A stretch of DNA of 64,000 bases from Fomes fomentarius (taxonomy: Eukaryota > Basidiomycota > Agaricomycetes > Polyporales > Polyporaceae), in NCBI GenBank assembly GCA_022606135.1, contig JABYQN010000010.1, forward strand, positions 2,046,001-2,110,000, in the 5' to 3' direction. Position numbers and translations under genes: made by a program. The notes under the pieces are model-generated. The model ran no database searches and was not told the DNA's origin. It worked only from the letters and a program-made list of their open reading frames with translations. This document shows, piece after piece, positions 28,557 through 52,389 of the stretch. Each line of letters starts with the position of its first letter. The first letter of the stretch is position 1.

Positions 28557-28655
28557 CACTGCGGGCCCCGGGGTGTTATCCCCCGCGTAATAGGCAGGTA
28601 ATAGCGGCGCACGACGTATAGCTATCCAGCGGCTATCGTCTCCCTATAACACCAG
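28557..28655 (+). repeat. left terminal inverted repeat, 99 bp
   Basis: Begins CACTGCGGGCCCCGGGG and ends at ACACCAG. It matches the reverse complement of 52291-52389 at 98 of 99 bases. Confidence 0.95.
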
Positions 28656-28758
28656 GGAATAGTAAACCTACGCACCGCCTATAGCACATCTATTGTTTTA
28701 GGGCCAAAGACAGTATGTCCACTCCAAGGTTACGTGAGGGTATAGAGGGGGTAAAGCT

Positions 28759-29030
28759 TTGCTGCGCCACGCCTATAGCACTTTGTCATAGGTTATCAAT
28801 ATTTCTCACACCAACCACCTACAACCTCCCTATTTATCCTTTATAACACCTCTATAACAATAAGTTATAGCGAGCCGATGGCCGGTATTGAGTTAACCTA
28901 GAGCACCGTGAATATTGGCAGATGATAGGTGGGTGACAGATATTATACCCCCTAGGCAGATACCCTGCCAAGGCTTTGTTATGTTATCCCTTTTGTGATG
29001 GAGGATAGGCGTCCAATTGGTAACCCTTTC
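28759..29030 (+). repeat. left copy of subterminal direct repeat
   Basis: Starts TTGCTGCGCCACGCCTATAG and ends near AATTGGTAACCC. It resembles 51947-52243 in the same orientation, with substitutions and small indels. It is non-coding. Confidence 0.85.
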
Positions 29031-29284
29031 AGGCATGTCTTAGTCAAACAAGATCAGATTGGATTACGGGGATTACGGGGATTAGATGAGATCAAAATCA
29101 GATTAGATTACAGCGATCAGATTACGATCAAACAAGAATACAACCATTAGATAAGACATTTGCGATGTGATAAGTGAGCGTGGGGGCAGGGAGCAACGCG
29201 CAACGCGGCTCTGGGACACGAAGGAGTGGAGATTTGCGCGGTCCTGCGGGCAGTCCGACGTGGGTGTGGTGCAGTAAGAGTGGG

Positions 29285-29600
29285 CGAGTGGGCGAGCGCG
29301 AGCAACACGGTCCAGCGCCAGCGCGGTCCAGCGCGGTCCTGCAATGGGGAGTAGTGGTGCAGCGCGGTCCAGCGCGGTCCTGCAATGGGGAGTAATGGTG
29401 CAGCGCGGTCCAGCGCGGTCCTGCAATGGGGAGTAGTGTGGTGCAGCACGGTCCTGCGTGGTGCAGCGCGGTCCTGCGTGGTGCAGCGCGGTCCTGCGTG
29501 GTGCAGCGCGGTCCTGTGTGGTGCAGCGCGGTCGTGCAATGGGGAGTAGCGCGGTCCTGCGCGGTCCTGCGATGGGGAGTAGTGCGGTCCTGCGCAGTGA
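29285..29600 (+). repeat. GC-rich minisatellite, unit around gtgcagcgcggtcctgc
   Basis: More than ten imperfect copies of a 16-17-bp unit, some extended by AATGGGGAGTAG. Long frames on the minus strand are composition artefacts. It lies between the left subterminal repeat and the 3' end of the first cargo gene. Confidence 0.88.
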
Positions 29601-29661
29601 GATGTAGTCGGGCGGGTGGGGGTGAGCGAGCAATGGATGTTGTCCACCAATGCGCTGGACA

Positions 29662-32600
29662 TCATTGTGTAAATGGGCCAGCGACACCTCCAAACTGTGG
29701 CGGTTGCAACTTCAGGGGTTTGGCCTCTAACGCGAAGTCGTATTCCTCTTCATTGATCTCGAGGAGCTCGATCTCCCACTCATCGAGCGTTTCCAACCAC
29801 TCCGAGTTGTAGCAGTTGCGCCATAGGCCTATCGGAGCAATCCCGGACACTGTCCGACATGTCTGATGTAGTCGACGAACTCGCACCGGGTTGCCGCTGG
29901 TACGCCTCTGATACGGCGGTGACTTCCAATGGTCAATGTATTTGGCATCCAACGACCACAGGAGCGTTCGTAGCTCATGGCTTTGCCACGCGGCGATGAT
30001 GATCCGGTACACGGGCGGATGCTCCACTTGCTCACCGTCGGTTTCGTCGCCACTCATGTTGGAAGCAGCCATCATGCTCAAGAGAGCTTGGTGTCTCGTG
30101 TACTTGAAATGGATACAGACAAATAGTCGAGACTGGTAGAGCTGTGAAAGGTATGCCGTGTAAGCTACGCGCGCGATTGCACCGCGATGACGACTCACGG
30201 TATTCGTCCTTGAGTTCCGGGCTGCCTGGCGTTGAATCTCCTTCAACCTCTCCTCTGTGGGGGGCTTTTGTCCTTTCCTCCATGCTCGACGTAAAGACTT
30301 CATGTAGTTGTCTGTCACATCACTGACAGACTCGTCGGTCAAGAGATGAGGAGGAGGAGGGTTTCTGAGGAAGGTCCCGCCTTCTGCCTTCCTCTGAAAT
30401 GTCCGCACGATGATATGTCGTGCCACCTGGTTCAGCTTAAAGCCCTTCCACCGACGCTGGAAGTCAATGTAGAGGTTGTCTGGGGTGCATTGCACAGCGT
30501 CTGGTGCACCAGCGAGATAGGCAGTTTCCTGAGCGTCGGTGAGTGTAGGGAATTTGTCGAACAGCTCTTTGGTGTCGCTGATCTTCAGCAATAGACGAAC
30601 ATGTGCGTGCAAACGTCCCTATAAATCGCTCAATAGCGAGCAAGTTTGTTGTTACAGAAAAACGTACTTGCAAGCGAGTGAGATGATCTCGCTCGACCTC
30701 CGCTGGTGTAAGGACGACCTCCTCCCCGCGAGCTCTAGCAGCCCGTGCTTTGGCCTTGCGTACGGCCGCACCCGCTCGCGGGGCCGCTTTATTCGGTTTC
30801 TTGGGGACGGGATCATCAGACCGTTCACGCATGGACTTGAACTCCGCTAGACACGCTGCTCTGATCATTTCGTCAAATACGAGACGGGCACAATTAGAAT
30901 GATGAGAACTCACTGGAACTCTTGATTCCCCTTCATCTGCTGTAGCAACAATTGACCCTGTTCATGGATGGCTTTGGAGATCATATCGACCTTCCTGAAC
31001 ATCATCACGAACATTTGCGGGTTGTAGTATGTCCCAGCCTTCTCAGAATCAGCGAAAGTCTATCAATAGTGAGGGAGAACGCCCGACGCGAGCTATTCAA
31101 AGGCATACCTCAGTGGCCATTGGGTCGTCTTCATCACCGTCGGAGTCGTCGCTTCTGTTTTCGTTGTCAGCATCATTGTCCAAGTCGGCGTTGGCGTTGT
31201 AATTTGCATATTCGGTATCATCGTCTCCGCTGCTCGCACCGCCCTCCCAGTCCATAGTATTTGTCGCGCGGCCCTGACGGAATCTGAATCAGTTTATCAC
31301 TAGTCTTTACTACAAACACTACCCCACCTTTCCTTTGTCACGCGAAGTAGATGCAGGCGTGACTGTGTCAGTGGACGAGATGGACTGCTGAGTGTTGGAA
31401 TGGGAGAGCGTGGTCTTCGATGAGATGAGTAGAGCGTTATGAGGATACTATGAGTCGAGATAGTACACACCCGATAGGATAAATCGTATACAGCCGCCGC
31501 CTCCGGTTCAACACCGTCAAGAGTGTTCATCTCCATGTTCTCAAAGCAGATACTGGATTCGGATGAGAGTGTATCGTAACGGGTCAATGAAGAAGTTGGT
31601 TGGGCGGCCGGTGCATTCGATGGTGTCGCAGTGAGCAAAGATGCTGAGCCCGCGCCTTTTGGAGTCAATTGGGATGGACCGGGCTGGTCTGTGATCTCGT
31701 CTGGACTACTGGTGGTGAGGAGGCGGGTGCGGACGCAACTGAACTCTGCATCCCGAGCCTGCATCTGTTTCTGCGCAGACCACTTCGTGTACGTGTTGAC
31801 AAGCAAAGCTTGTTGACCTTCGTCCAGTGTGCTCCACAAGTTCCAGAGAGTCTGATTAGACTGAAGTCACGGTTCATACCTTTGTTAGCATGATGTAAGA
31901 AGGCTCACTCACAACCTGCGCGCCGTGATGATGCTGATATGACTCTCCCAAAAATAGCAAAAACTCGGGGGTCAGATGCGTCACAGACGGCGTCCGATTC
32001 AACCTCGAAAAAGTTGTATGTTGCATCACACCGGCAGATCCAATCTGCAGCGGAGACTCGTGATACGAGATCGCATTGACCGGGATGGGTGTGACCAATG
32101 GCGGTTCGGAAGGGCGGTCGGCCGCAGTCACCATAGGAGCCAACATCCCGGGGCGAGGAGGGATGGGAGGGGGGCCAAGCCCAAGAGGGGGCATGGTGGG
32201 CATGGTGTTGGGAGCTGTGGGGTTGTTCTGCCCTTCGAGAGGGTGCGGGGCGTATGCATGCGGGACGGATGCGTGCGGGGCGGGTGCGTGCGGGGCGGAT
32301 GTGTGCGGGGCTGGTGCGTGCGGGGTGGGTGCGTGCAGGGCTGATGCGTGCGGGGTGGATGCGCGCGGGACAGATGCGCGCGGGGTGGGTGCGTGCGGGA
32401 TGGATGCGCGCGGGACAGATGCGCGCGGGGTGGGTGGGTGCGGGGCGGGCGGGGCTGACTCGCGAGAGGGCAATAGTAACTCGTTCGCCATAGCATAAAC
32501 AGGAGCCTGCTGAGAAGCCGCTGTGAGCAAACGTTGCAGGGTGACGGGCTGAGCGTCTAAGAAATCAAAGTCCATCTGCGCGGCACTGAGTGGAGCTGCT

Positions 32601-33299
32601 GGCTGTGCTGGCGGGGACTGAGGTGGAAGGGGCCAGGCTCGTGGAGTAGTAGGATTCTCGGCAGGAGATGGTAGTGCAGGAGGAGGCGCGGCTGAGTGGG
32701 GTGGAGTTGTAGCCTTTCTGGAGGTCCTCTTGGGTAAGGCCTTGGAAGGTCGATGAACCGTTGTAGTAGTTGCAGAGGATTCTCGCCGCTGATGATATAC
32801 CGTAAGTACTAAAGATGTTAGACGACAGTCAGATGCTATGCCTACCTCTGCGTCCCCTCCATTCAGACGGGCCTCTGCATCCAGACGGGCCTTCCTCCGA
32901 CTTGGTTCTTCTCTTATGCCGACCTATAGCGTTGCGTTAACTTCGGGTCACCTACTCATAATGCTAGCAAAAACGAACCTTGAAAGGTGGCTTCAATTGA
33001 ACCGGTTTCGGACGATCCTGACAAACATGATTTAGATTCACCAAATATGCAACGAAGATCCACCCACAGTGTCCTTGACCTTCCGATTCTTGATGTTCAA
33101 GACATCTGAAGCGCGTTGTGGGGCACGTCGTGCCCCGAGCACAGATGCGGTCTCGTATGGACCTTGGTACACTATGGGACCAAGATACCTATGTTAGCTA
33201 TGGCCCATGCGGTGCTCATATATGAGACAACTCACCCAAGCCTTCGCTGTCGACTCCTGAGTCGACATTCGCGACGGTAAACTGCTCTGGGTGGCTCAT
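29662..33299 (-). CDS. cargo gene 1: large soluble protein of unknown function
   Basis: Intron-rich gene assembled from minus-strand frames. The start is MSHPEQFTVANVDSGVDSEG (33299), followed by VYQGPYETASVLGARRAPQR. A long Pro/Ala/His-rich repeat comes next, then MQHTTFSRLNRTPSVTHLTP and FGKAL-free helical parts such as LWSTLDEGQQALLVNTYTKW. Later come an acidic stretch (DNDADNENRSDDSDGDEDDP), FVMMFRKVDMISKAIHEQG, LTDAQETAYLAGAPDAVQC and WKGFKLNQVARHIIVRTFQR. It ends with MSGDETDGEQ, PPVYRIIIAAWQSHELRTLL, EINEEEYDFALEAKPL and a stop at 29662. I recall similar proteins beside transposases in other mushrooms, but no named domain is visible. Only some exon borders are certain; one intron lies between NSRTNT and LYQSRLF. 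Confidence 0.7.
32235..32460 (-). repeat. coding minisatellite in cargo gene 1
   Basis: Imperfect 15-bp periods encode alternating APHA, TPRA and VPRAS units, for example VPRASIPHAPTPRASVPRAS. Its plus-strand sequence (gcgtgcggggcggatg-like) shares the GTGCGGG core of the non-coding minisatellites elsewhere in the element. Confidence 0.85.
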
Positions 33300-33475
33300 G
33301 GTGGGAGATGTTAGCGGAGGTAGGTACTCACCAAACGGGATATCTGTGGCATCGATTGCTTTGTCGTAATGGCACCCTTTGGCATCGAGTGGCGCATGTC
33401 GGACATGCACGGGTCACCTTCCTTGATGAGCATTCTATGTACATGCGAGTGATTATATTCGAATTCATACTAGAA

Positions 33476-34540
33476 TTACGGGAGCATCTCACGGCCGTGA
33501 ACGCGCCAGCGATAGAGGCACGTACTCTCAGCACCCCAATTCTCTACGGCTTCCAGAACAAGTACACCAAAATAGAAGTCGAGGTCTAGGATAGTGTCGT
33601 AGATAGGAAAAGTCTGAACATGAAAGGGAGCATGGATGTTGTATTCAAAACTGGTGAGCAGGACAAACAAACGATCGTCAGATAGATGCGGCCCATATCG
33701 ACCATATGTCGCGGCGGGGAGAACGACGCCGTTTGCGACGAGGTTACGGTAACGGGCCCTGTTGAGTGGCCCCTCGACCATTCCCCACAGGAGCATCTTT
33801 CTGGGGGATTGGCGAATGTCCGCGGCGATCTCGAGAGGAATGTGCTCCACAGTGACATGGGTCGGATGCACGAAGACGGGTAGGCCAACCCCAAGCTGGA
33901 AGCTCCGTTGATCCACCAACCAGCATTGGCCAATCCGTAAATCGTCCCTCAGGGCGAGTTCCGGTGAGTTGTCGCCGGTGAGCGGCGATGGAGAGGTTAA
34001 GTTGTTGACAACTTTAGCGCCGTCAGCAACCAGCGCAAAATCTCTCCGACCAACAGGGTCGCGAAGGGCGGCTGAGATCGCATGGTGTACATAGGCGAGG
34101 ACATCTTGAGCTATCATCGGTGACTCCGTCGTTGGAGGCGGCGCGAGCAAGCGCTCGAGCAAGTCGCCGGGCAAGAGGGGTGGAACCACGTCCCTCTCAC
34201 GCGAAAGTTCTGCAATTGCAGGGGACGTAGGCGGCCCACTGCTGGTGTCCAGTGCGACGATGCCAATGCAGGTAATAACGCATGCCACCGTGAAGACCTG
34301 GGCCACGCGAATCAGCCACCCGCCTCCTTCGGCTGTATTGGAAACTGGAGTGGCGTCATGCGAGTTTGGTACATGCTCTTGAGGTTTACCCTGAGCGCGG
34401 CCCTCTTTAATACCCACCATGTGTCAAGATACATCAAGAGCAGATAGTGCCATGACATACTCACTCGATGGTGGGCACTCAGCTTCATAGACGAAGCGAT
34501 CCTGGAATACATCCGAGCGACTCTTCTTCGGGGTGCGCAT
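33476..34540 (-). CDS. cargo gene 2: SUN-domain membrane protein
   Basis: SUN proteins sit in the inner nuclear membrane and form LINC bridges with KASH partners. Two exons, 34540-34465 and 34404-33476, give an intact 334-aa protein. The short N-terminal part begins MRTPKKSRSDVFQDRFVYEA. One membrane helix (VAQVFTVACVITCIGIVAL) is followed by a brief linker. The SUN domain then reads DFALVADGAKVVNNLTSPS, DDLRIGQCWLVDQRSFQLGV, VFVHPTHVTVEHIPLEIAAD, SPRKMLLWGMVEG and the terminal NWGAESTCLYRWRVHG. These are the hallmark GA.V, cW, vTieHip, P+...WG and NwG...TCLYR.RVHG blocks. The linker is much shorter than the coiled coil of typical SUN proteins. The intact frame suggests selection. Confidence 0.9.
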
Positions 34541-34801: not shown

Positions 34802-36330
34802 ATGGCTCTCAGATACGAACTTGTGGCTCGACTGAAACGTGGACTTGTTGGCGGCGTGTCAGCAGTGGCTTTCAGTCCCGATGGAGCTTACATTGCGACT
34901 GCTGGCATGGCGGACGAGAAGGTCTATATATGGCGTATGGCTGACAAGAAGCTGCTGCACACGTACAAGGGTTCTCGAGCCCCCGTGCTCTCTATCGAAT
35001 GGCTACCAGGCGACAATCCGACTGTGCTCTGTGGGTCACAGAGCGGTTACATCTTTGAGTTGGGATTCTTGTCGGTACGTATTTAGTTTCGACAGAGCAG
35101 CGACTTTCTGAGCTTGTTGAACAGGGCATAGCTGAGCTTGGCGGTTTCGAGGCTCATTCGTACCCGATAGAATGTCTGGCGGCGAAGGGTGGGCAATTAA
35201 TCTCTGGTGGCTTACCGGAAGTCAAGGTCTGGAAACGCGATCGGCATAGTAAGTCCCATATATCCCCTCCGGATTCTCCATCATCCACCCCCACCCCCGA
35301 TGTGATGTTATAGGGAAGTGGGGAGTTCAGTTCAAGCTTCCCTCTCCACCCGTCGACTCTACAAATGCGGACAAGGAAGTCATAGTGATAGGCGTTCACT
35401 GGACGAAGACACGTGTCCACGACTCCGTCGTAGTCATCACTTATGCCCACCATGGTATTATGTACGTCCGTAGGCCTACGATCGCGCCTTATGCTCATCA
35501 TACACAGTATATACAGAAATGCCGATTGGCGACGTCTCCAGGTATATCCCATCAATGACATGTAAGCTATTTCATCCCCGCCATCTTGTTTCATTGTAGT
35601 CACGCATTCCCAGCGGCGGATCTTGCATGTCACCACAGGGGTCCGTCATAGCTCTGTCGATCATAGGTTCTGGGTTCAACCTCTACGATCTGGTCACAGG
35701 CGATTGTTTACGTTCGTTCCCTGTCGACGACGGCAGCGAATGCACGGTCCCGGTCCTGTATGCCCATGGAGGGCACGCGCTTCTGGGTGGTGGGACCGTT
35801 GGACTTGCCCGACTGTGGAACGTGCATAATGGGCGCTTGCACCAGACATTTGCCACGCAAGGTACGGAATACAATTCATGTGACATACAGTAGGTTTCTG
35901 ATTATCGTCTGCAGGGTACCCCAATGTCCGCGCCCTTTCTGTAGGTGCAACGATAACATAGATAACTTGCACTGATTCAAGCATGATAGGCTAATTACAA
36001 TCCCGAAGAGGACCTGTTCCTCCTTGCCGCTGGTGTGAGCGATCTGGAGGGAGATTCCGACATCATCATTTGGATGGCTCGTGAGTTAGACATCTAGTCA
36101 ATATTTCGGCTGTTCATGACTTACAGGTGATGATAACATTGGTAAACACCGCCCGGACGGTCTCGGTTGGTATGTCATTCAACGTTTTGCTGCGATCTCT
36201 GGTGCTCACACGTTCATAGTGCCTGGTCTATATCGGTATCTTTGTGATCGTCCCTGCTGTAGTCATCTTCTTTCAGATGCATGCTCTCGTTGTTGAGAGC
36301 TTCATCACACACATCTACAATGTAGAGTAA
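34802..36330 (+). CDS. cargo gene 3: WD40-repeat protein, possible C-terminal membrane helix
   Basis: Exons 34802-35074, 35125-35248, 35314-35461, 35508-35561, 35614-35861, 35915-35940, 35990-36080, 36127-36141 and a last one before 36330. Blades are visible as VSAVAFSPDGAYIATAGMAD with KVYIWRM, VLSIEWLPGDNPTVLCGSQS, LISGGLPEVKVWKRD, SCMSPQGSVIALSIIGSG with FNLYDLVTGDCL, LLGGGTVGLARLWNVHNG and DLEGDSDIIIWMA. The region at 36221-36330 encodes CLVYIGIFVIVPAVVIFFQM followed by HALVVESFITHIYNVE, a membrane helix with a short tail. Joining it to the last blade needs a different splice site from the one I can see. WD40 propellers are scaffolds; a nuclear-envelope link is inferred only from its neighbour. 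Confidence 0.82.
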
Positions 36331-36373
36331 TTGTTCTCCCACATATCAATGAATTGATCCTTCCCCGCAGTCA

Positions 36374-37843
36374 TCACCGTCCTCCGTCAATGAGGCGCTG
36401 TCCTCCGTGATGATGCTCCAGTGAGCCACCCCGACGTGTCAAGCTCTCCTCCTTCATCCGATAAACGCTGGCCTCGATACTCGCCAACTGCACTTCAAAC
36501 GGCACCGCGATGGCCTCCATTGCTGAGGTACTCAACCGGTCACGAAGCTCCGATACCTCCACCTCAAGGACCGTCAGAGTGTGCATGGCAGTAGCAACAT
36601 AGGCCACAGCGACATTGCGGCATTGCTGAACCTGTTTCAACGTCGTTTCGCGGTTCCTGAGATCGCGCAGTTTGTGCCTATTGCCGCCCAGGCGTGTCCA
36701 AAGCTCCCACAAGAGGTCGTCCAATGCAAGGGCATTGTCAAAAGCCTCTTGAACAGTGAGCGCATGAGCAGTGGCCAAGCGCTCTTCTAGACGATCGAGG
36801 CTGCTCGAAGTGGTCGTTGCATCCAAGATGATAGTGGAGATTGCCGCGGTGAAGGACAGCAACGACGACTCGAACGTGCGGACGAGGGCTTGACCAAGAG
36901 GCGAAGTAAGGCCTGGCTTGGCCGTAGGTTCCCGCACAGACTCGATAGCGCGCAGCGCATAAGTATTGAATGCGAGAAGACTAGGCATCATATGAGCGGG
37001 TCGACAGATGGGACATACCAAGTTGTACTCACCTATCCAATATTCCATATAGCTTAGACGTGAACACTTGAAGGTCACGCGCTGCTAGCCGTGCGTCTGA
37101 CAAGAAGCCTGTGAGGACATCTGCGAGGGCGTCCTTGCTGGAGAGGTCGCTCGACTTGACGATGATGACCAGATCGCGTGCAGCAAGCTCAGCGTGCTTA
37201 ATGTTGAGCACAAGATCGAGGCCTATGGCGGAGTTCAGGTAAAGCTCATCCAGAGCGCGATGCTGGATGGCGATGAGGGCAGGAAAATCCGCATGTGTTA
37301 GCGGAGGTGTGTGTGCAGGAGGCGTGGTGCAGAGCGGGAGCATGGAGAGGATGGGAAACTCGCAAACATTCATCGTATGTATGTCAGTTTGAGCAACATT
37401 GAGCCCGTACAAGATAGAGTAGCGCATCATCGTTGCACTTAGAGCAACGGTTAGGAGGAAGGAGATGGGCTTCTTCATCAATGCGAATGTGGTGAGAACG
37501 ACATCGCCGAGATGACGGCGGAACACCCAAGGAAGACTGCGTTCTCCTGCAATAACGTTTCCACATTAGCACTGAAGGTATAATACATCGATATTACTTA
37601 CCTTCCCTGCCGGCTGGGCATTCATTGCGAGTGAGGTCATGGCGAGAAGTGTGGATGAGAGATGATCGTAGCTCCTTGATATGTGGTCCCCTGCAGCAAG
37701 GTGCTTTGACACCTGGTAAGTATTCACATGAACAATAGCTGATTTGAAAGCGCAAAAGGTCCCTTAGTGTGAACAAAATGTCGCGAAACGAGCTTGGATT
37801 GAGAGGGAACAGTACGAGGTACAGGACAGGCGGTAACAGGCAT
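36374..37843 (-). CDS. cargo gene 4: helical membrane protein
   Basis: Exons 37843-37728, 37690-37602, 37546-37033 and 36980-36374 give 441 aa. The first intron is only 37 nt, so the start is tentative. After GERSLPWVFRRHLGDVVL comes one hydrophobic segment, PISFLLTVALSATMMRYSIL. Then about 330 residues are mostly amphipathic helix, such as ALDELYLNSAIGLDLVLNIK, LSSKDALADVLTGFLSDARL, LLAFNTYALRAIESV, DRLEERLATAHALTVQEAFD and LEVEVSELRDRL. This is the layout of a one-pass membrane protein with a long helical domain. No named family is recognised. The helical region could be luminal or cytosolic. Confidence 0.75.
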
Positions 37844-37880
37844 ACTAAATGATGCACAAACAGATTACACTGAGTTTTGT

Positions 37881-38861
37881 TTACTCGTCTTGCGGAGAAT
37901 CGGAAGCACTGCCCGACGAGCTTGGAGGATTATAGACGCTAAGCTCGCCGTCTAGTCATGATTTCAGCGACTGCCCTTTAGAGTCATGATGTGCTCTTAC
38001 CTTCATCCCGAACAGAGGTCCCAGTTTGCACGGCAATGGATGCAAGATGTATCGGTGCTCGCTCTTCGTTGAGGGAGGGAGTAGAAGTGATGCGACTGTA
38101 GGTATACTGTATGGCGAACAGCTCGGCAAGACGTTGAGACAAAAGTGCTTGGCGGCGGTCAATCTCGGTCTTCGCATTCACGACCAAGCGTGCAAACTCT
38201 GAGTAGTCAAGGAGTTGCTGAAAGCGCAGCGCGTAGTGACCACGACGTGTGCTGTCAGGAGCTTGACTGCACGAGAACAGCGTGATAGAAACGACGCCCT
38301 CTGCCTGATAGGATGTTAAGCTATCAATGCGCTGCGGGAGGCCGAATGCTAACACATACCTCGTCCAGAGCATACCAGAAGTGCTCATCGATGATAGCGG
38401 ATAGACCGGGTATCGTGCGGGAGATGGGCCAATGTAACGTGCAACTACTCCGACTGTTCCAGGATTGTATATATGAATATATACATAGCTTGAATACGTA
38501 GGAAAATTGTACTCACGAGTGTCTGCGCTCAGTTCGGCGAGAACAACGCGTGTGCTGAGCCAGCGTAGCCGGCCAGCTTCGTCAGGTGTAGCGATCTCAG
38601 CTGCATCAGTCGCGTACAAGATGTGGGTGTCGACTCCGAGCTATGGCTATGTATGGAGAAGTCAGCGCAAGCACTCCTAGGGACTCACGACGCTATCTTA
38701 CGAGGACATGGTGGACTGAATTCAAGGAGAGAGATGACTGTGCGGAGGCTTTCATAGTCAGTTGGCACAAAAGAGAAGGTTATGTACCCCGCGATTGAAG
38801 AGAAGCATAACGTACCAGCATTCGCCCGGTGTTTTCCGAAGGCGCTGAGGAAATTTCCATT
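37881..38861 (-). CDS. cargo gene 5: unknown protein with helical segment
   Basis: The likely start is MEISSAPSENTGRML (38861). Later exons read LGVDTHILYATDAAEIATPD, RLRWLSTRVVLAELSADT, VVARYIGPSPARYPVYPL, GVVSITLFSCSQAPDSTRRG and the helical YALRFQQLLDYSEFARLVVN with AKTEIDRRQALLSQRLAELF. The last exon, 37951-37881, is joined after 38001 and ends ASDSPQDE. Exon 2 is unresolved. It lies in tandem with cargo gene 4, with 38 bp between this stop codon and the next start, so the two may be co-expressed. The function is unknown. Confidence 0.62.
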
Positions 38862-39219: not shown

Positions 39220-39963
39220 ATGCCGTTAGTCCGCCTACGTACACCCAAACTGGAGACGGCACTGACATTGTTTTGCAGCATTCCGTCCGTCCTCGTCTCC
39301 AATTTTAAGGTCTCCGTCCTGGATGATCGCGAGATGGTAGGTATTGAGAATGCTGAGAAGTTAGCCTGGACGGCTAGTCAGGTTGCTCTGGTTGAGGTTA
39401 CGTCGGCCTTTGTGAGTCTATGCTCGTGTCTCTGGACGTCTTCATTAACGTCAAGTCTAGACGGCCTCATCATCTGCGAAGGGCTACGGAACGGCAACTG
39501 GCATTACCGTCTCGCCAGCAGCCGGGACACTTTCCAGCCGCTGATCGCGAAGACGCTCAACTCATCTTTTACCTTGGACCATTCCAGGTGAGTCTTTGTT
39601 TTTCACAGCTCGTTCGGCCCAGTCAAATCAAGTACGCTCTTCAGACCCAGACCACCGTGTCAATCACCGAGACGGGACCGGACGGGGAGCCCTCCGCATG
39701 TTCCACATTCGATTCCGCTCGTTCGATGAGTTCGTCGAATTCACTTCGGCTTGGTGGATTGCGAGCGGTGCATCGCGCAACTTCTGCAAAGGACTCGATG
39801 CTGCTTTCAAGGAAGTCATGGACTCCTTCCCGATTGAGGGCAACCAGGACCAGGTCGTCGATGGTGAGTTCATCGCGTAACATATATTCGGATGTCGATG
39901 TCGCACTGACACACCGGCTCAGAGATGACAACTCTCCCCGCCGCTGGCCAGGATGGCCTCTAA
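39220..39963 (+). CDS. cargo gene 6: unknown soluble protein
   Basis: The start MPLVRLRTPKLETALTLFCS opens a frame continuing VSNFKVSVLDDREMVGIENA and WTASQVALVEVTSAF. After at least two introns, a last region reads LRMFHIRFRSFDEFVEFTSA, WWIASGASRNFCKGLDAAFK and EVMDSFPIEGNQDQVVD. A final splice (donor after 39863) adds EMTTLPAAGQDGL. The middle exon borders could not be fixed: two frames (one with AQLIFYLGPFQ) compete. No domain is recognised. Composition and the conserved-looking aromatic blocks support a real protein. Confidence 0.55.
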
Positions 39964-40363
39964 GGTTTCAATACAGGCCTCGGACGCTCGCTGGTGTGAC
40001 AGGGAAGTATCGTCACGCACAGAATCGCTGCTTGTGTACTTGTATCTCGTATTGTATCGTGTAATTGACTGTATGTTGGAGAACAAGAAGAGACGTTGCG
40101 TGTCGCAATGTGCTTCCCGTCACATGTGGATGGCGACGTATACCGATAGGCAATCTCGCCCTCGTTTCTGTCGCAAAGGGCGATGTGTCTCTTTTTCCGT
40201 CTACGAGCTTTCGCCTTGCCCTTTCGTCAGTGCCACAAACTCTCAGTGGTGTCGTCCATCACCCTTTGAACTGTCGTCTACTGATGCATTTACAAGGTCT
40301 TTGTCTACTCAAGCTTATTAACCCACGGCGTTCAGTGGGCTCTTCCCATCCACCCTCTCCCCA

Positions 40364-41442: not shown

Positions 41443-42165
41443 AGCGCATCTGCGCTGCCTACTACAGCTTTGGCTTCGCGCCCGCCGCATCGATGGAGTT
41501 CACATTGGACAGCGTCGAACCTGGTCACAGGCGCGGTGACGGACTTCGGTTGGCCCTCACGCGAAGAACAAAACTCCACCTGGGTCTCAGACTCCAGGTT
41601 CATGGCGATATGCCGCGAAGAGAGGAAGATCGGCATCCGTGCGTAGCGGGGTGCTGTACTGAGGAGGAGGGAAGGAGGAGAACTCTGTCCCTACGCATGA
41701 TGGTGCATCTAACAAGACTGCAGTCGCGTTGGTCTGCTGCTTTTGTGACTCTGTTATATATGTCTCGTTCCGCTCATTGATTCCGAACCATGCTCTGTAT
41801 ACTATTAGCTGCTAATATCGAGGTTATTGGTCCTATGTTTGATTGCGTGATTCGAAGGATGGGGAGCGGCACGCGTACGGTGCAGCGAGGTGCGGTGTGC
41901 TGCGTTTTTGCGCGCTTGTAGTACTTGAGTCTCGACGTTGACTTGCCATCTCGCTCGCTTGCCCAGGACGACGCACTCGAATTGTGAGGAACCATGACAT
42001 GCGTCATACCCGACGAGCACCACCTTTGTGCCACGATGTATGATCCACGCCGCTTCCAGACGTTCTCGACAAAGGCTTGCGAAAAGACCTTGGTAAGTTG
42101 AAAACGCTATATATCGTGGTAGCAAGGCTCTAGAGAATCCAACTGCAACTATACTCTCCTTTGCC
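41443..42165. other. element interior without clear gene
   Basis: 723 bp. Competing frames at 41443-41700 may be 3' sequence of cargo gene 7. From 41800 on nothing is protein-like. Confidence 0.35.
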
Positions 42166-42898: not shown

Positions 42899-43544
42899 GT
42901 ACCCGGTGGTCGATTCCGTCCTGGAGACGTCTACCAGCATATGACGACCCCGCAGCTTAGCCTCATGTGGCTCCGTGTCAATGACGGCCAAGGGCAGCCT
43001 ATCTGGCAGCCTGTGCCGGCAGGTTACCAACGGGTGATGGGCGCAGGCTGATGCTTACATTGAGCCGGAGGGAGCCTATCTGGGTCACCAGAGCTACTAC
43101 GAGCGATCCACCTCCTTCGCCTAGATCTCTATTATCAGTCGCGGTTTCTAATTGTCCTGTCCGTTCTCACTCCGTTCTCAGTTCAGTCAACGCCACCCTC
43201 GTCTGCCTAGATCCTCGTCGCAATCGCTGGTTTCCTCTCGTCCCTGTCTGTTCTCACTCAGCTCTCATTCCATCCAACGTCGCTCCTTCGTCGCAATTGA
43301 CGGTTCCTCCTCCTTCCCGTCCGTTCTCACTCTTTAAACTGCATCACTTGAACATGCACACACACTCCTTCTCACTCAGCTTACCTTGCCCCTGAACGTG
43401 CACTCACACTCCTTCATGCATCGTGTATCTACGTTTTGTACTATATTAGTCCAATCAAAATGAGGTTATGTATTAATATCAGCCCGTACGGGCAAGCATG
43501 GTCGTGTTTATCCTGTGAGAGAACGCGGATGGCGAGCGTCGGGG

Positions 43545-43615: not shown

Positions 43616-43676
43616 ATGCGGGCGCTTATGCACCTATCGCTTATTGTCAAGAGCTTGCGCAACTTCAGACCACACC

Positions 43677-43925: not shown

Positions 43926-43938
43926 AATTCAACCTGCT

Positions 43939-44880
43939 ATGATGCGTGTGTTCACGCCACCAGTCGCAGGTAAGCAAGCCTTCCGCTGTGTGCCACTCAG
44001 CTCCACAGTGTCCGAATCCACTCCTGATGTAATCGCTACTATGGCTAGTGAAAACCCGTGGAATTTCAAGGAAGAGTCAATTGAGCCGACTCTGGAGGCG
44101 AATGCGCTTGTAGCCCCTGGCCACCGACGTCGTCTGCCCAAGCAGCCGCGCCATCAGCTCTTGATATCGCCATACAAGCCTCCGAAGCTTGAGGCTGAGG
44201 TCAATTCTGGTGGCTGCCCAGCTCAACCCCGCTGGTCCGTATGGAGTCCGAAGCATCGACCAGTCGCGCGGTTCCGGTGAATTCAGGATTGGACTCAGTC
44301 GGGGAGCTGTATGCTACTGCTGGACCATCTCGTACATCTCCAGCGCGACGGACAATCTGAGCATCCAGGCCAGCAATGATACGAGTTCCGATTACTCGGC
44401 CCCTGCCCTCGCTGGGAGTTCAGCGCCACAGGCTATCTTGTCACCGGCGAGCTCGATCAACCTTGTACGTGCTTATGTGTCCTCGCAGAATGCTAAATTT
44501 ATGACATATTGTTCATCTCCTTAAGATCGTCGTGAGACAGCGGTCAGTACGCTACGACAACGATGATCCCTCGATGAAATCGTCACATACTGGTTCGAGA
44601 TCGAGGTGAGCAGCCCATCGAGGCTCCCCGGATATATCGAGCCAAGGCGATCTACAGCCCGGCGACCTGTTCTACTATCGAACATCGTCAACGGGAAGAG
44701 GTCACAATATGGATCTGGATCGCAGACGAAATCATGATGGAACACATATGGAAGCCCGTCAAAATAGGATATCAACGTACTGATGGTAGGCGCCTCACGC
44801 TGACAGAGAAGAGGAAGAATCCGTCGTGGATTGGGGAGAAGTGGTTTGTTCGACGGGGTTTGACGAGTACGTCTGTCATG
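43939..44880 (+). CDS. cargo region 10: exons of an unresolved gene
   Basis: Two blocks look coding. At 44041-44280 a frame reads MASENPWNFKEESIEPTLEA and GHRRRLPKQPRHQLLISPYK. At 44640-44868 another reads EEVTIWIWIADEIMMEHIWK, PVKIGYQRTDGRRLTLTEKR and PSWIGEKWFVRRGLT before a GT donor. I could not join them with consistent phase and do not recognise a domain. They may belong with cargo gene 9. Confidence 0.35.
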
Positions 44881-44999
44881 TTTTAACTCCGGTACAACAT
44901 TGGACTCATACTTGGACAGATCGTCTGTGAGCAGAGTCATCTGTCAGGTGGTACGCGTTCATTCAATCACATTACTGCATTACATGTACATCAATTGCT

Positions 45000-45950
45000 A
45001 TGCGCTTAATCGATCTTTCATCGAAGAAGACTTTGACCTTCCTCGTTCCACACCAAAACCTTTGTCGGTCGTGGCTAGACAGGGTCCGGCGCGTGGATCA
45101 GCGTCTGAGTAATTCCCTACCACCACGACCGTCGACCCGTCAACTACCACTGCCACGCATCACCCCGCCTCCAGAAGTAGTCGCATTGTCCGAAAGATCG
45201 CTGCTTCCATGACGCACGAGAATCGGCAGTATGTGTCAAACCCACCCTCTGAAGTTGTAACTGCACGTACCATAATCGAGGACGCGCGGGTTCCCGCACC
45301 TCCATCAAGAGACCTCCCAATGACAGTACCTATGAACTGATCTAGGTTACTATACGCTAACCGGAGACGTCAGCGACAACATACGCGTTGCAAACGATGA
45401 CCTGAGCCACTGGGAGGAGCGTTACACCGAGGCTCTTCGGGAATTGCAGAGTTCTGACTCGTGTAATGCTGCACTGTTGACCGCTGTCCTGACCATCAGA
45501 AGATCGCAGGTAAGTCTTAACTTAACATATGTATGACCTGCTGAGATACGCAGTAGAAATCCGTAGAAGCTCGAATGCTCTCCTATGAGGCCATGCTCCA
45601 GGCATCGCAGAATGAGGCAGAGAAAGCCGTGGGTCCAGCAAAGACGGCTTTTCGCCAGGCTCAAGGTGAGTGCAGACTTTACGCCAACGCATCACAGGCT
45701 GAAGGGTGTCCAGTCTCTCTGAAGAAACAAGGTGAAAGCCTCGATAATTTCGTGCTCACTGCATCAATCAGGTCAACGACCTTCAGACCCGGGTTCTTGC
45801 TCTGGAGCTGGAGAACAAGGTTTTGAAAGCGAAGATGGAGAGCTACAAGAAAGAACACGCCGAAGTCAACGGCGTCTTGACGTCGATCCAGACCTGGGCG
45901 GCTCAAGCCGACCAATCTATCGAGCACTTGAGCGATGACAGTTATACATG
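45000..45950 (+). CDS. cargo gene 11: coiled-coil protein
   Basis: Exons include KSVEARMLSYEAMLQASQNE with AEKAVGPAKTAFRQAQ (about 45559-45666) and DLQTRVLALELENKVLKAKM with ESYKKEHAEVNGVLTSIQTW (about 45772-45950). The second has regular hydrophobic heptads and is a confident coiled coil. The frame ends in a stop near 45950. A new frame, MMGQLRQLDAHLEDQLLALP, begins 4 bp further, so either the gene ends or a one-base indel separates them. An upstream exon near 45000 (MRLIDLSSKKTLTFLVPHQN) may be the start. Confidence 0.5.
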
Positions 45951-46842
45951 ATGGGACAACTCCGCCAACTCGATGCGCATCTCGAGGATCAGCTTCTTGC
46001 TCTTCCTGATCCAGGCGATTTCGGCAAGGTGCACTCTCAGCTCTCCGGAGAGAGTTCTCCTTTCACCTGCGGTTCCTTCACAACCTCTCCAAGTCTACGT
46101 CCCCTGGCTCACTGGTAGCTGAGCTTGTGCGAGCTTCCGAACCATCCGAGTCTCACGCATCGGAAGTATTGATCCCGGTAAGCATATCTTGTGATCTCGT
46201 CTTACCAAGCTATTAATGTCATGATGTGGACATTCTCAGTCAAATAGCGTTGAAGCCGGACTGTCCGACTTCTCGCTGCAGAGCAGTGTAAGTTCGCTGC
46301 CTGCTGCACAAATCTCATACACTAACGGTCATAATTTCACTGGCAGTCTGCTCTACCCGAACGAACACTCGCTACTTGTCGACAGGATGACTACTCGCTC
46401 GTTCTCCGGCAATCAGGCACCGTGCGCATGAGGGCTCCCACTTGGAACCGTGCCGATCACAGTGCCGACTTCGTTATGCTATACACGATCGTGGTGCTCG
46501 CACAAGTCATCGTAAGTTGCCGTGATATCTCCTGGAATCCCCACTTATAGCGGTTGATAGTCCTATGGTACTTCTGTTCCTGTTCCGTCCTCTCCTGCCC
46601 CGACTACCAGAGCGTCCATGGACAACTCGGAAGAGGAACAATCTATCTCTGTTCCCGGTCTTCTCTCCACCACCGTTGATGTTGCATGCCAATGGCTCCT
46701 CATTGGATGTGCTTGGTATGTTCAGGAAGCACTCGGGGGAATCATATGGTCCACTATAACAGCGCGTCCGGATCAAGGTGGATCCTCCGATGATGTGTCG
46801 CGTAGCGAGCATCCATATTGGGAAGCGGCCATGAGGGGGTGA
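45951..46842 (+). CDS. cargo gene 12: protein with two hydrophobic segments
   Basis: Blocks in order: MMGQLRQLDAHLEDQLLALP, ELVRASEPSESHASEVLIP, SVEAGLSDFSLQSS, ADFVMLYTIVVLAQVI (hydrophobic), MDNSEEEQSISVPGLLSTTV and DVACQWLLIGCAWYVQEALG followed by GIIWSTITARPDQG. It stops at 46842. Introns of about 50-60 nt separate them. Two hydrophobic stretches suggest membrane association. It may be one gene with cargo gene 11, giving coiled coil plus membrane anchor, the layout of many nuclear-envelope proteins. That link is inference. Confidence 0.45.
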
Positions 46843-47009
46843 TCTGAATGCTCCACATGTGGTTTAGTACCTCCGTCTGATAATTCAAGGGTTTTTTTCT
46901 CACCAGTGACATCTGCGGCACACGCTCCCAAGCACGCCAAAGTAGGTTGCGCGCGACACCATACTGACAGACAATTTTACTTGATCATCACAAGATCATC
47001 GTTCCCTCC

Positions 47010-50000
47010 ATGATAAGAAAAGATCGACCATCATCTTTTCGGCATGGTCAGCAACGGAGACTAGTTCCCTCCCCTCCCACTTACCCCGCCCGTTGTGGCA
47101 CTATGTGTGTTCCTGAGGGACGATCCTTTGCCTCTGCACCCGATGTAGAGACCATACTTGGTTGGATGAACACAAGGTCGAACGTGAAGGTCGTCTCTTC
47201 AAACGAGCGGACACAGTGAAGAAGCACATGCTGCAAGATCAACTCGTAGCGGAAAACGTTGCGGCTAGTACGATCCTACTTGCGGCTGCATCTAGCTCGG
47301 ATCCGCGTCCGTTGGAGTCGCTTCCCATCCGTACACCAGACGTTACTCAGGGTGACATGGACGCTGTGAGTATATACTGTTTGTCTCCATGTCTTGTAGA
47401 ACTCACGCACACCACCTGCACTACTAAGGCGCCGTCCACCGGACCATTGCGGAGGCGCAAAAACGCGGAGCCAGCAAGAAGCACTGGTGGCGATGAGCAA
47501 GAGAAGCCTCTCGGCGCAGACAAGGTGAGTAGATACCATGGTATTGTTTGCAAGCCGGGGTAATCAACCTCGTGTTTGCTCTGCTAGCACACGTGCAAGA
47601 CGCGCTTGAGTGTCTTGTCTGGTATTCAGTCCTACCTGGATGCCCATCGCAAGTTGATCCCCTCGAACCTCGTCCTAGACTTCTCAGGCTCGTCTATCCC
47701 TCCGAACACGACCTTCAACGACCCAGTGCCGGAGCCCCCGAACTCCGGGGCACAGAATCCGTTATACCACAACATCCGTGACAAGATCCTCGTGCAGAAG
47801 AAACACCTAGAGGAACTTCCCCCATCGGCGACAAGGATATGGATCACCGTCGTGAGACTTTGATTGACGATGCGACTAGCCACCTCGAACTCTTAGAAAA
47901 ATTGAAAGTCGACGCCTGGTCAAACCACTTGCTCGCGCAATATCTCGCTCAGTCGTCTTCCAACACCGGCCCCATTGTTGTGACCGTAGGTAAGGGTGCC
48001 CATATTTCCTTGTCCGAAGCTTCAAGTCGCTGATCCTGTGACTAGATGAGACGCCTGTCCATCCGGCAAAGAAATTCGAGCCATTTTTGCTTGCAGGACT
48101 TCTGATTGCTGTGGTACTGCATTCGTTGGCCGAGGCCGCGAGACTGGATGTCACCGTCCTCCTCGCCGCCATGAAGGCGGTCTTCTTCGGTTCCTTCATG
48201 TGGTGTAACACGCTCCATCGACAGCCGTCCACACTCTCCCCGAACAACTCAAGATTCTGGACTCGATACCGCGAGACGTCCGCACACTTTTTACCCAGCT
48301 TGATCTCGAGCCTCCTGACACCGTCCGCCACGCCGTCTGCCCTAAATGCCGAGCCACGTATGCGCCTAATAAGCGTAAGTCTCACGACCCATATCCTCAT
48401 CGCTGCACCTTTCGGGAAACCGACAAGGAGGTCTGTGGCGAGAAACTAGCCGTCAAACGTGAGACGATCGAGGGGAAGGATATCATCGTCACCTATGAAC
48501 CCCTCCAGTGGTTCCCGTACCGTCCATTCAAATCCTGGATTACCGAACTTTTCCAACGCCCCGAATTAGCGACCCTTGCACGGCAGGCCTGGAACACGGT
48601 GCCCGGTGGGAAATGGAACGATATTTGGGACGCGCCCGCGTTACGCGAGCTGCGCGGCCCAGATGGCCGTACACTGTTCTCTGAACAGCCCGAGGGTGCT
48701 GTCCACCTCGTCTTCTCACTCTTTGTCGACTGGTTCAACCCGTATGGCAACAAGCAGGCTGGGAAGTCGCACTCCATCGGGGCGATCTATCTGGTCTGCC
48801 TGAACCTCCCTCCCGACATTCGCTACCGTCCAGAGAATGTTTACCTCGCCGGAGTCATCCCCGGTCCAAATGAGCCCGAGACTCACCAGATGAATCATTT
48901 CCTTCGCCCGCTCATCGACGATCTGTTGGATGCATGGTATCGTGGAATATACCTAAGTTCTTGCGCATTTGAAGGCGGGTCTTCACTCTTCGTTCGTGCC
49001 GCGATAGTTCCTCTTGTATGTGATCTGCCGGCGCTACGGAAGGTTGGAGGATTTGCTTCGCACTCAGCTGCGCATTTCTGTTCGTTTTGCCAGCTACTCA
49101 AGTCGAAGCAGAACGATCTCGACCGCGACAGCTGGCCCCGCAGAGACAACAAGCAACATCGTAAGCTCGCGGAGCAGTGGAAAAACTTGGGGAGCGAGGC
49201 GGAGAGGACGAACCACTTCGAGCAGCATGGCCTACGTTGGTCGGAGTTGCTTCGCCTTCGCTACTGGGATCCAACTCGTTTTGCTCTGGTCGACGCCATG
49301 CACAATCTTTTTCTCGGCGAGCTCCACCACCACTGCCGCCATGTCTGGGGTATCGACGTGAAAGACAAGGGCTCTGGTGCGAAGACGCGCCCTCATACGC
49401 CAAAAGAGCAGCTGGAGTGGCTCCAACACGTCGTGAAGTACGTCAAGCTCGATTCGTTCAACAAACTCAAGCTAGCTCGCAAGGGCTACCTCGTCGCTGT
49501 TGCGGAGCTGAATGGTGCAGTGATACCAGCAGCCAGAACGTTCGCGAAACGCGACTACATCGTCGCACTGCTCAAATGGGTACGTTCTGTCCCTGTTGCT
49601 CTTTGTCACCATCCTCACGCTGCCAACGTGAACAGTGGAAGGAGAACGGCGGCGAAATCGCACTGCCTCCGGTCTTTTCCGAGTCAACGAAGGATTTCCA
49701 TCTCATCGAGCATGAGCTCGACATATCGAAATTCCGGATTCTCGATCAAAAGACCCTCTCCTCGGTCCGTAGTGATATTGTGGACACATACCTACCCTCC
49801 TGGATGCAGCGCGCCCCGAAGAACTTCGGGAGCCTGTCGCATGGTAAGTTAAAGGCAGACCAATGGCGAACAGTCTGCTTGGTGAATCTGGTGATCACTC
49901 TGGTGCGCCTCTGGGGAATCCGACGGCGACGAATCGACAGAAGGCACTTCTCGAGAACTTCCTTGATCTCGTCCGTGCTGTCGACCTTGCTACAAGACGC

Positions 50001-51138
50001 TCCATGGATCCTCATCGAGTGCGCAAATTCGACGAGTATATCCGCAAGTATCTCGAGGGCTACGCACCATGTTCCAGCATGACCTCGTCCCAAATCATCA
50101 CCTATCTCTCCATCTTGCGGAGTGTTTAGAGCTGTTCGGACCCGTCCATGCATGGTGGGCATTCCCCTTCGAACGATTCAACGGGCTTCTGCAGAACTTC
50201 AACACGAACAATCACCCCAGTGCGTTTGATATCCCTCATGGTTCTCATGATGTTTGATTCTACTAATACTTGCCGTCCTTTCGGATAGGGACATGCCGCT
50301 TACATTCATGCGGTATTTCTACATCGGCGCCAATCTCCGATGGTTGCTTGCCACCATTGAATGGCCTGATGCATCTCCGTACCGCGCCATGACAGAGGCC
50401 TACCAAAAGGCGTTCCAGGACGCAGCCAGGAGCAACCCTCGCCTCGCTAGTCTGCGTCCGCTTGGAGGAGATACTGGGCAAGACCTGACGTTCAATGAAG
50501 AGACATCGATTACACTACAGGATGACATTTACACCAGACTACTCACCCGTATCAGCACGCTCAGTGGTCCAATATTCTCATCTATCTCTTCCTCCCTCAA
50601 GGATCGGCGGCCGGCTCTCGCCAACGTCGTCAACCACATCGGCTCCTACGATCACGGAGGCGTCAAGTTTGGCACCGGAAAGGCGCAATTACGGGATTCA
50701 TTCATTGTCTTCAACTTGCCGAACGACAACGCCGCCAACACCAATGCCACCAACACCAACACCGGGAGATCCTTTCCCAGAGCAGGCCAGATTCGGGAGA
50801 TCGTCCTGCATCCTCGCACTGAAAACGGCAAGCCAATCGTCGAGCCGTTCTTTGTCGTTGACGAATACGTCCCCTTGTCTGCCGTCCACGAGGCCTCAGA
50901 CCCCTTCCGCCAATATTCAGACCTGGACACGCAGCTCTTCTACAACCACTTCCAGCCACATCCTCATGTCATTGCACTTCAAGATATTCGTGCACACTTC
51001 GCAGCTCTCGTGTATTGCCCGGAGGAGATTGGTCAAGACTGTATTGTCGTCCGATCATTGGATAGAGTATGTGAGCTCACCGGCTCGCTTGCACTACTCG
51101 AGACTAACATTCCCGATGATAGTCTTAGGTGTCTATAG
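47010..51138 (+). pseudogene. Tnp2-like (Transposase_21) transposase, apparently frameshifted
   Basis: This is the transposase expected to move the element. A zinc-ribbon region reads HAVCPKCRATYAPNK and CTFRETDKEVCGEKLA. The catalytic core shows HLVFSLFVDWFNPYGNKQAG, SIGAIYLVCLNLPPDIRY, VCDLPALRKVGGFASHSAAH, FCSFCQLLKSK and FALVDAMHNLFLGELHHHC; these Asp/Glu residues are the likely DDE set. One intron (after 49579) is clear. Downstream, LVNLVITLVRLWG, NPTATNRQKALLENFLDLVR, MFQHDLVPNHHLSLHLAECL and DMPLTFMRYFYIGANLRWLL are in successive frames. The switches near 49918, 50063 and 50225 have no adequate intron. The rest is one frame to 51138. It is either a decayed gene or one with indel errors; the first switch is at a GGGG run. 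Confidence 0.85.
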
Positions 51139-51189
51139 ATTGGCGACTCTCCTCGATCGCACAGGAGCTCGGCATGGGCAAGGCTACAT

Positions 51190-51740
51190 TGTAGTGTAAT
51201 GTGACGTAACGGCGTGCGGAGCAGCGTAATGGCGTGCGGAGCAGGGCGACGTCGCGCGACACGGTGCGGTCTCGTGCGACTGCCGCACGGTACGATACGG
51301 GGCGACGATGCACTACAACGAGCGCGAATTTGTGCGGTAAATGCGATATTGTGCGGCACGGTGCGACATTGTGCGAAACGGTGCGACGTTGTATGGCACG
51401 GCTGCGGCATGGTGTGGCATGGTGCTGTATTGTACGAGTTTGTGAGGTGACACAACGGCGTGTGGAGCAGCGCGACATTGCGCGACGCGGTGCGGTCTGT
51501 GCGACATGACTAGACGTTGTGCGGCACGGTACAATACAGGGCGACAATGCGCTAGAACGAGCGCGAATTTGTGCGGTAAGTGCGATATTGTGCGGCACGG
51601 TGCGACGTTGTGCGGCACGGTGCGATTTTGTGCAGCACGGTGCGACGTTGTACGACGGGGCAAGGTGTGACGTTACACGATGCGGCGCGGCGCAGCATGG
51701 TGCGACATCGTATAACAAGATGCGACTTCGTGCGATGGTC
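51190..51740 (+). repeat. long GC-rich minisatellite, core gtgcggcacggtgcgac
   Basis: 550 bp of imperfect 10-17-bp units (TGCGGCACGGTGCGACATTG and variants). A longer block containing GAGCGCGAATTTGTGCGGTA occurs twice, near 51318 and 51559, so about 240 bp was itself duplicated. All overlapping long frames are artefacts. Confidence 0.9.
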
Positions 51741-51785
51741 TGTACGCCGATCGCTGAACTCACCATTTGTCAGGTGTAGTGCGCC

Positions 51786-51918
51786 CACAATCTTATCTGA
51801 CTCTTTGAGTACAATCTTATCTTACTGCTCGAGGACAATCTTATCTTACTGCTCGAGGACAATCTTATCGTAACGTTCGAGTACAATCTTATCTTACCGT
51901 TCGAGTACAATCTGATCC
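51786..51918 (+). repeat. 24-bp tandem repeat, five and a half copies
   Basis: The unit is close to ACAATCTTATCTTACTGCTC plus GAGG. The copies differ at a few bases. It lies between the GC minisatellite and the right subterminal repeat, a plausible transposase-binding array. Confidence 0.9.
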
Positions 51919-51946
51919 ATGATCAAAACTGGAAGCGGACATAGGA

Positions 51947-52243
51947 TTGCTGCGCCACGCCTATAGCACTTTGTCATAGGTTATCATTATTGCTCACACG
52001 AACCGCCTACAACCTCCCTATTTATCCTCTATAGCAACTCTATAACAATGGGTTATAGCGAGAAATCAGTTTACCTAGAACACCGTAAGGATTGGCGGAT
52101 GATAGGCGAGTGACACGATATATATGCCCCTTGGTGATACCATATCAACAGCCTTACTATGTTATCCCTATGCGTCCAAGGCTGACAAATCACTAGTCCC
52201 CCCTTTGTGATAATAGGATAGGCGGACAATTGGTAACCCTTGG
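51947..52243 (+). repeat. right copy of subterminal direct repeat
   Basis: Homologous to 28759-29030 in the same orientation: starts TTGCTGCGCCACGCCTATAG and ends AATTGGTAACCC. It contains an extra ~35 bp near 52170-52205. Confidence 0.85.
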
Positions 52244-52290
52244 CACCCGTCCAAAGGGATGTCATAGCCGGTCGATATAATAACTATGCT

Positions 52291-52389
52291 CTGGTGTTAT
52301 AGGGAGACGATAGCCGCTGGATAGTTATACGTCGTGCGCCGCTATTACCTGCCTATTACGCGGGGGATAACACCCCGGGGCCCGCAGTG
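52291..52389 (-). repeat. right terminal inverted repeat, 99 bp
   Basis: The reverse complement begins CACTGCGGGCCCCGGGG. One mismatch to the left copy. Confidence 0.95.

Follow-up and report, generated by a model that had tools for sequence, protein, structure and literature searches.

A 24-kb EnSpm/CACTA-type transposon of Fomes fomentarius carrying a SUN-domain protein gene within a long-kept accessory module

Overall structure and copies of the element

The 64,000-nucleotide stretch of Fomes fomentarius DNA analyzed here (the window; contig JABYQN010000010.1, positions 2,046,001 to 2,110,000) contains an element of ~24 kb (28557–52389) that starts with CACTG, ends with CAGTG, and encodes a Tnp2-type transposase, a SUN-domain protein, a WD40 protein, and several further cargo genes designated G1 and G4–G8 (Table 1). 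The outer 99 bp of both ends form an inverted match with a single mismatch (position 65), just as a preliminary description of this DNA had stated, and over 126 nt the two ends still form an inverted pair with 91% complementarity. When the 126-bp left end was compared with the 40.9-Mb genome (24 contigs, labeled C1, C2, and so on, the window being on C10), six matches were obtained, with no solo ends among the matches listed, which comprise the best candidates. Because these six matches fall into three evenly spaced pairs (23.8–23.9 kb apart), the element is not a chance arrangement. The search with the element end suggested in the preliminary description thus yielded three near-identical copies with paired ends, all three carrying the cargo set: copy A in the window, and copies B and C, both on contig C2.

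Aligned over ~23.8 kb, the copies differ by 2 substitutions per pair away from indels (16–33 when columns near indels are counted) and by 142–192 gap columns per pair, 45 of which, in the pairs with copy C, stem from a single length difference of the 15-bp repeat array at 32356. The remaining gaps are mostly 1-bp indels, chiefly at ~37–46 kb of the window, where they break many reading frames of the window copy; the most intact copy is copy C. These 1-bp indels look like unpolished long-read errors. The element is a recently mobile DNA transposon of the EnSpm/CACTA type. The 15-bp tandem array spans 32213–32467 within a repeat-rich minus-strand open reading frame (ORF) and is 45 bp shorter in copy C.

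Table 1. Features of the element, its copies, its relatives, and its insertion site (positions in the window unless a contig is given)
Feature	Position	Strand	Remarks
DUF4246 host gene, interrupted by the insertion	27517–28556	−	Pfam, 302.9 bits; profile positions 124–400 of 401
Left 3-bp flank, GGA	28554–28556		Matched by the flank to the right of copy C (C2:3645859 side)
Left terminal inverted repeat	28557–28682	+	Starts with CACTG; first 99 bp with 1 mismatch to right end; 3 copies genome-wide
Subterminal repeat (family D9)	28746–28874		Same orientation as 51934–52062, 88% identical
G1 (no known family)	29662–31866	−	Conserved at ~29662–30618, 30889–31020, and 31693–31863; collinear with D, found at C5; homologs
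Repeat-rich ORF	31874–32923		Directly upstream of G1, may belong to G1
Cargo SUN protein, main exon	33476–34423	−	Hydrophobic helix and SUN domain; Pfam, PDB sequence, model and Foldseek, relatives
Possible first SUN exon	34465–34540	−	By eye, inferred; MRTPKKSRS..., basic start as in D, then GTGAGT donor-like site
WD40 protein, several exons	34802–36082	+	End approximate; Pfam, D collinearity, genome search
G4	36374–37640	−	Short N-terminus, one hydrophobic helix, long all-helical part; model of homolog P0050
G5 (unknown)	37984–38640	−	Collinear with D
G6 (unknown)	39545–39880	+	Weak match in D
G7	40322–41047	+	Hydrophobic stretch at N-terminus; weak match in D
G8-like paralogous domain, copy 1	41025–41780	+	Approximate
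G8-like paralogous domain, copy 2	42985–43395	+	Approximate
G8	44512–46050	+	Coiled-coil-like tail; ends approximate
Tnp2 (Transposase_21) gene region	47000–51138	+	Includes upstream Cys-rich piece; start approximate; sub-threshold DUF4218
Subterminal repeat (family D9)	51934–52062		Partner of 28746–28874
Right terminal inverted repeat	52264–52389	−	Ends with CAGTG
Right 3-bp flank, CGG	52390–52392		Matched by the flank to the left of copy B (C2:1412902 side)
Copy A	28557–52389		Contig C10
Copy B	C2:1412903–1436755
Copy C	C2:3645860–3669756	Reverse
Relative D	C1, ~3.917–3.955 Mb
C5 relative (third lineage)	C5, ~1.115–1.136 Mb		G1(−), SUN(−), G4(−), Tnp2(+); order kept, ~29–52% identity

Transposase and classification

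The transposase matched the Pfam family PF02992 (59.9 bits; cut-off, 28.6), in agreement with the Tnp2-like protein described before, and a DUF4218 match (26.7 bits) was slightly below its cut-off of 27. Candidates for the C(2)C and H(3-4)H motifs, which are expected between the second D and the last E, are CSFC, seen by eye after PLVCDLP, and an MHNLFLGELHHH stretch farther on. Terminal inverted repeats of the CAC..GTG type are a criterion for EnSpm/CACTA elements (PMC12730594). Because CAC..GTG ends, re-paired 3-bp duplications (see below), and Tnp2 are all present, the element is assigned to EnSpm/CACTA.

Three other classes were considered and rejected. The ends CACTG..CAGTG are neither the TGT..ACA nor the CATCA..TGATG given for Plavaka in PMC12730594. 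Six-frame Pfam scans were run on copy C in three stretches, in which intron-split genes could be missed; besides relatives of SUN, WD40, and Tnp2, they gave nothing above the curated cut-offs. A tyrosine recombinase family, as in Starships, and a PolB polymerase or retroviral-like integrase, as in Polintons/Mavericks, were absent from the same scans at E ≤ 0.1.

SUN protein of the element

The cargo SUN protein is encoded by a 315-aa ORF with a SUN domain (PF07738; 58.5 bits; cut-off, 22). In its predicted structure (mean predicted local distance difference test score (pLDDT), 79.5; mostly >90 in the SUN part), a helix of residues 35–59 covers the hydrophobic stretch, and only short helices precede the SUN fold. 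A Foldseek search with this model gave human SUN2 (PDB entry ID, 4dxt; E 2.8e-15) as the top match, with KASH-bound SUN structures among the top rows, so that the SUN-domain cargo first recognized in the preliminary description holds in both profile and fold. The cysteine of the GxCW stretch (C167) is almost invariant among 44 aligned rows; that of the TCLYR stretch is present in the window protein, but not in 90% of the rows.

A separate gene on contig C4 encodes a 547-aa ORF in which a membrane stretch and then a long region precede the SUN domain, from which architecture we infer that it is the host Sad1; the long helix-to-SUN region of this protein is lacking in the cargo SUN. Other SUN matches in the genome are a gene on C7, not detected with the cargo SUN as the query, and a distant gene on C14 (C14:599988). 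The possibility, considered beforehand, that the SUN gene sits at one fixed chromosomal place without flanking inverted repeats does not agree with these data, in which the SUN gene of the element is found at several places, apart from the host Sad1. In comparison with the Sad1/UNC-84 SUN proteins of linker of nucleoskeleton and cytoskeleton (LINC) complexes, the cargo protein shares the SUN domain and fold, the GxCW and TCLYR stretches, and, putatively, one membrane helix, but lacks the long region of the host Sad1, is borne by a transposon, and has multi-copy relatives.

Other cargo genes

The WD40 protein was identified in copy C by PF00400 (29 bits; cut-off, 27), as anticipated. In the window, G4 is represented by two minus-strand ORFs (36374–37084 and 37029–37565) with a hydrophobic stretch seen by eye. 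Its coding similarity to the relative D (see below) extends upstream of the helix, where a splice-like junction suggests ~30–40 residues before the helix. An AlphaFold2 model of the G4 homolog P0050, not of the window protein itself, consists of a single helix at the N-terminus and, after it, a body made up entirely of long helices (mean pLDDT, 69.7), with no informative structural match. The hydrophobic stretch and the one-helix model of the homolog bear out the helical one-pass membrane protein of the preliminary description.

Relatives in the same genome

Comparison of copy C with D, a diverged relative on contig C1, gave 162 tblastx blocks within the element, whereas the flanks of the window gave none against D or the C5 stretch. 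The strong blocks follow the same order and strands in both, namely G1, SUN, WD40, G4, and G5, then G8 and Tnp2; G6 and G7 are weakly matched in between, and some low-scoring blocks are out of order. Within 42.5 kb, nothing matches the element end better than does the right end of D (score, 32; runner-up, 22). Protein identity in the blocks is 0.54 for SUN, 0.61 for WD40, 0.51 for G4, 0.50 for G1, 0.42 for G5, 0.45 for G6–G8, and 0.61 for Tnp2. Second codon positions are 0.65–0.80 identical and third positions 0.26–0.37, in blocks chosen by protein similarity and hence biased toward low protein change; silent change is saturated. Judged from these sequences, the cargo appears to be constrained about as the transposase is. 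A protein from another source (P0008) is nearly identical to the SUN protein of D, but does not have the short deletion of the latter. In its gene order, D also has a low-complexity ORF at roughly the position of the window ORF with the 15-bp array, although the two ORFs differ.

A third lineage, on contig C5, retains part of the set (G1, SUN, G4, and Tnp2). It is adjoined by a direct duplication of at least 13 kb, 17.0 kb apart and 99.6% identical (L048–L051, C5:1100001–1140000), and surrounded by ~7 matches of a 455-bp repeat in both orientations.

In the whole genome, all 12 G1 matches are confined to the three copies, D, and the C5 region. Matches of G4 fall into 12 places by our own grouping, 7 of which (the three copies, D, two at C5, and one on C4) are within 40 kb of a Tnp2 match. 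Of the places without a Tnp2 match, the four on C14 (C14:594001, 716397, 755726, and 790042) are perhaps decayed elements. The expectation that the genes recur together is therefore upheld between such ends in all three copies and, together with Tnp2, in D (two genes weakly), and in part at C5; it does not extend to some SUN and G4 copies on C14 and at C4:677 kb, which are without a Tnp2 match. Altogether, the transposon carries a long-kept accessory module comprising the short SUN, WD40, G4, G1, G5, G8, and perhaps more, the gene order of which is maintained in one diverged lineage and partly in another. Because D keeps order and strands at saturated silent sites, and the third lineage keeps part of the set, the cargo does not look like a chance capture.

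Homologs in other fungi

The cargo SUN had 45 database matches at E ≤ 0.001 among 3986 candidates, its own entry included, with the names Polyporus arcularius (5), Cerioporus squamosus (4), Lentinus, Ganoderma, Earliella, Trametes, Pilatotrama, and Pisolithus. Again with the own entry, G4 had 11 matches among 1117 candidates and G1 had 6 among 1726. The SUN P0009 and the G4 P0055 of Polyporus arcularius each come from a contig of 15743 bases, and the SUN P0003 and the G4 P0049 of a second source each from a contig of 6596 bases; SUN and G4 seem to share contigs in Polyporus arcularius and in this one more source. In the tree, P0009 and P0003 group with the SUN of the element and of D (10 of 49 rows; support, 91/54, which is not strong), and the Sad1 of C4 pairs with P0039 (support, 98/88), the rows of C14, C5, and C4 being long and unsure in position. 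Several Polyporales have multiple copies of short SUN genes, which look different from the host Sad1. Part of this large family, in which one protein carries the database name Sad1, may consist of mobile genes and not of components of the host LINC complexes.

Insertion flanks

None of the three copies, including that in the window, has a matching 3-bp duplication of its own, the left and right flanks being GGA/CGG in copy A, CGG/GTA in B, and GTA/GGA in C. Re-paired across the copies, all three duplications are exact (A-left with C-right, GGA; B-left with A-right, CGG; C-left with B-right, GTA); the chance of some complete pairing is ~2 in 100,000 (six orders, 1/64 each). The interrupted DUF4246 gene has its match beginning at profile position 124 of 401, adjoining the element, and its missing start is located to the right of copy C. 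An A-left/C-right join yields 472 stop-free codons, 126 of them past the junction (...DFQWLPTDFAV...), and joins of A-left with A-right or B-right give only 11 or 26 codons past it. From the exact cross-copy pairs and the restored frame, it follows that insertion made 3-bp duplications and that the flanks are now permuted among the copies.

Misassembly is the more likely cause of the permutation, because identical 24-kb copies exceed and defeat many reads; the 1-bp indels also speak for poor polishing, and misjoining is the simpler explanation. Real recombination between the identical copies, rearranging C10 and C2, is somewhat unlikely, although the three duplications match in cyclic order, one pairing restores a gene, and, as read from the coordinates, one C10–C2 exchange plus one inversion would suffice. 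Contigs C10 and C2 of the assembly are thus possibly misjoined at the three copies, or truly rearranged. In either case, the element illustrates how such repeats can leave flanks permuted within an assembly.

Possible function of the accessory module

We give even chances to the proposal that the module is at the service of the element and not of the host, and that its site of action is the nuclear envelope, the latter being suggested by the SUN protein. Cut-and-paste elements gain copies when the break at the donor site is repaired by copying the sister chromatid. For an element of 24 kb, this refill has to be long and accurate, a need that would be served by a SUN system bringing the break to LINC complexes. 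The short SUN, without the long region of the host Sad1, would be located in the inner nuclear membrane, where it would either become part of the LINC complexes of the host or displace them, and G4 would act as a second membrane partner. The module would bring the element, or its excision break, to these complexes. The 24-kb gap would then be refilled from the sister chromatid, giving the element a further copy, with end joining and recombination between copies held down meanwhile. In Schizosaccharomyces pombe, persistent breaks become associated with Sad1 and engage Kms1, which keeps wrong-template recombination and end joining in check (preprint PMC12632457, the association partly from earlier work cited therein). 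The repair step alone, in which the excision break is steered to LINC complexes, is speculative and doubtful. More generally, we tentatively suggest that Polyporales may contain cut-and-paste transposons with their own LINC-like system (short SUN, helical partner, and WD40 adaptor), by which the element or its excision break would be placed at the nuclear periphery, with control over repair, copy gain, or the inheritance of nuclei.

Two other roles at the envelope, each of them unlikely, would also account for such cargo. As a drive device in the dikaryon, the module may act on karyogamy, the movement of nuclei, or the tethering of chromosomes in such a way as to favor the inheritance of nuclei or chromosomes that bear the element. 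In Cryptococcus, a basidiomycete yeast, kinetochores cluster late in cells without Sad1, and the migration of the nucleus before mitosis is disturbed (PMC6034078); a second SUN protein could bias both processes, and one without the long region of the host Sad1 could compete with the latter, but transposition already accounts for the three dispersed copies. Alternatively, the cargo may hold the element or the transposition complex at the nuclear periphery for target choice or escape from silencing, with no role in repair. SUN, a helical membrane protein, and WD40 are plausible as a tether, and the SUN protein has a basic start both in D and, at its possible first exon, in the element; however, no DNA-binding partner was identified among the cargo, and only three insertions of the element are known here. 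That SUN and the other genes are functionless passengers captured from the host, as gene pieces are by plant CACTA elements (PMC8978399), is very improbable in view of the order and strands kept in D and partly at C5, the protein sequence retained at saturated silent sites, and the apparent SUN–G4 linkage in other fungi.

Several observations weigh against a module kept for the element and acting at the envelope. The choice of blocks biases the codon comparison, as mentioned above. D is decayed, since its G1, WD40, G6–G8, and Tnp2 blocks contain in-frame stops and its left end is not recognisable; the C5 relative is decayed as well at its Tnp2 match, which has two stops, and WD40 and G8 were not found there in the genome searches. 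Five of the 12 G4 places, four on C14 and one at C4:677 kb, have no Tnp2 match, and neither does the distant SUN of C14, perhaps in a decayed element. Two Tnp2 places, on C4 and C10, have G4 or G8 nearby in other order or strand and were not counted as members. G4 has no recognisable relative of known function, and no KASH-like partner was identified. Finally, if the flank permutation were true recombination, the module failed to prevent it.

Comparison with known elements

The element resembles other members of EnSpm/CACTA (Tnp2, CMC group) in the CAC..GTG ends, 3-bp target duplications, Tnp2, and repeats just inside the ends, but differs in its size of 24 kb and in six to eight accessory genes, SUN included, kept over deep divergence. 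In the literature searched, no such cargo on EnSpm/CACTA was found, nor any transposon reported to carry a SUN protein or a set of envelope genes. To our knowledge, the element would be, if the proposed role is true, the first mobile element known to encode nuclear-envelope machinery. For a cut-and-paste transposon, an ordered set of six to eight accessory genes preserved across deep divergence is unusual, and the SUN protein among them ties transposition to nuclear architecture, making the use of LINC complexes by mobile elements in break repair, nuclear position, or inheritance testable. The element suggests that some transposons bring nuclear-membrane machinery of their own.

According to PMC12730594, there are fungal EnSpm, Plavaka, Zisupton, and Kyakuja elements that carry a TET/JBP dioxygenase thought to help the element. 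These likewise keep an accessory gene thought to aid the transposon, their accessory being a dioxygenase against methylation, whereas that of the present element consists of envelope-type and unknown proteins. Polintons/Mavericks and other giant DNA elements are similar as multi-gene DNA elements of comparable size, Polintons typically being 15–25 kb and encoding PolB polymerase and a retroviral-like integrase (PMC6431247), neither of which is among the Pfam matches in the six-frame scans of copy C. Starships of Pezizomycotina, classified by their tyrosine recombinase (PMC12134995), also bring large cargo on a fungal mobile element, in contrast to the Tnp2 and long inverted ends found here.

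Other features of the window

To the right of the element, 54301–54650 and 56216–56577 are direct repeats (82–84% identical, ~1.9 kb apart), perhaps a tandem gene pair. A long GT-rich repeat array with steps of 6 to 18 bp occupies 12492–13699 and is perhaps a low-complexity coding stretch.

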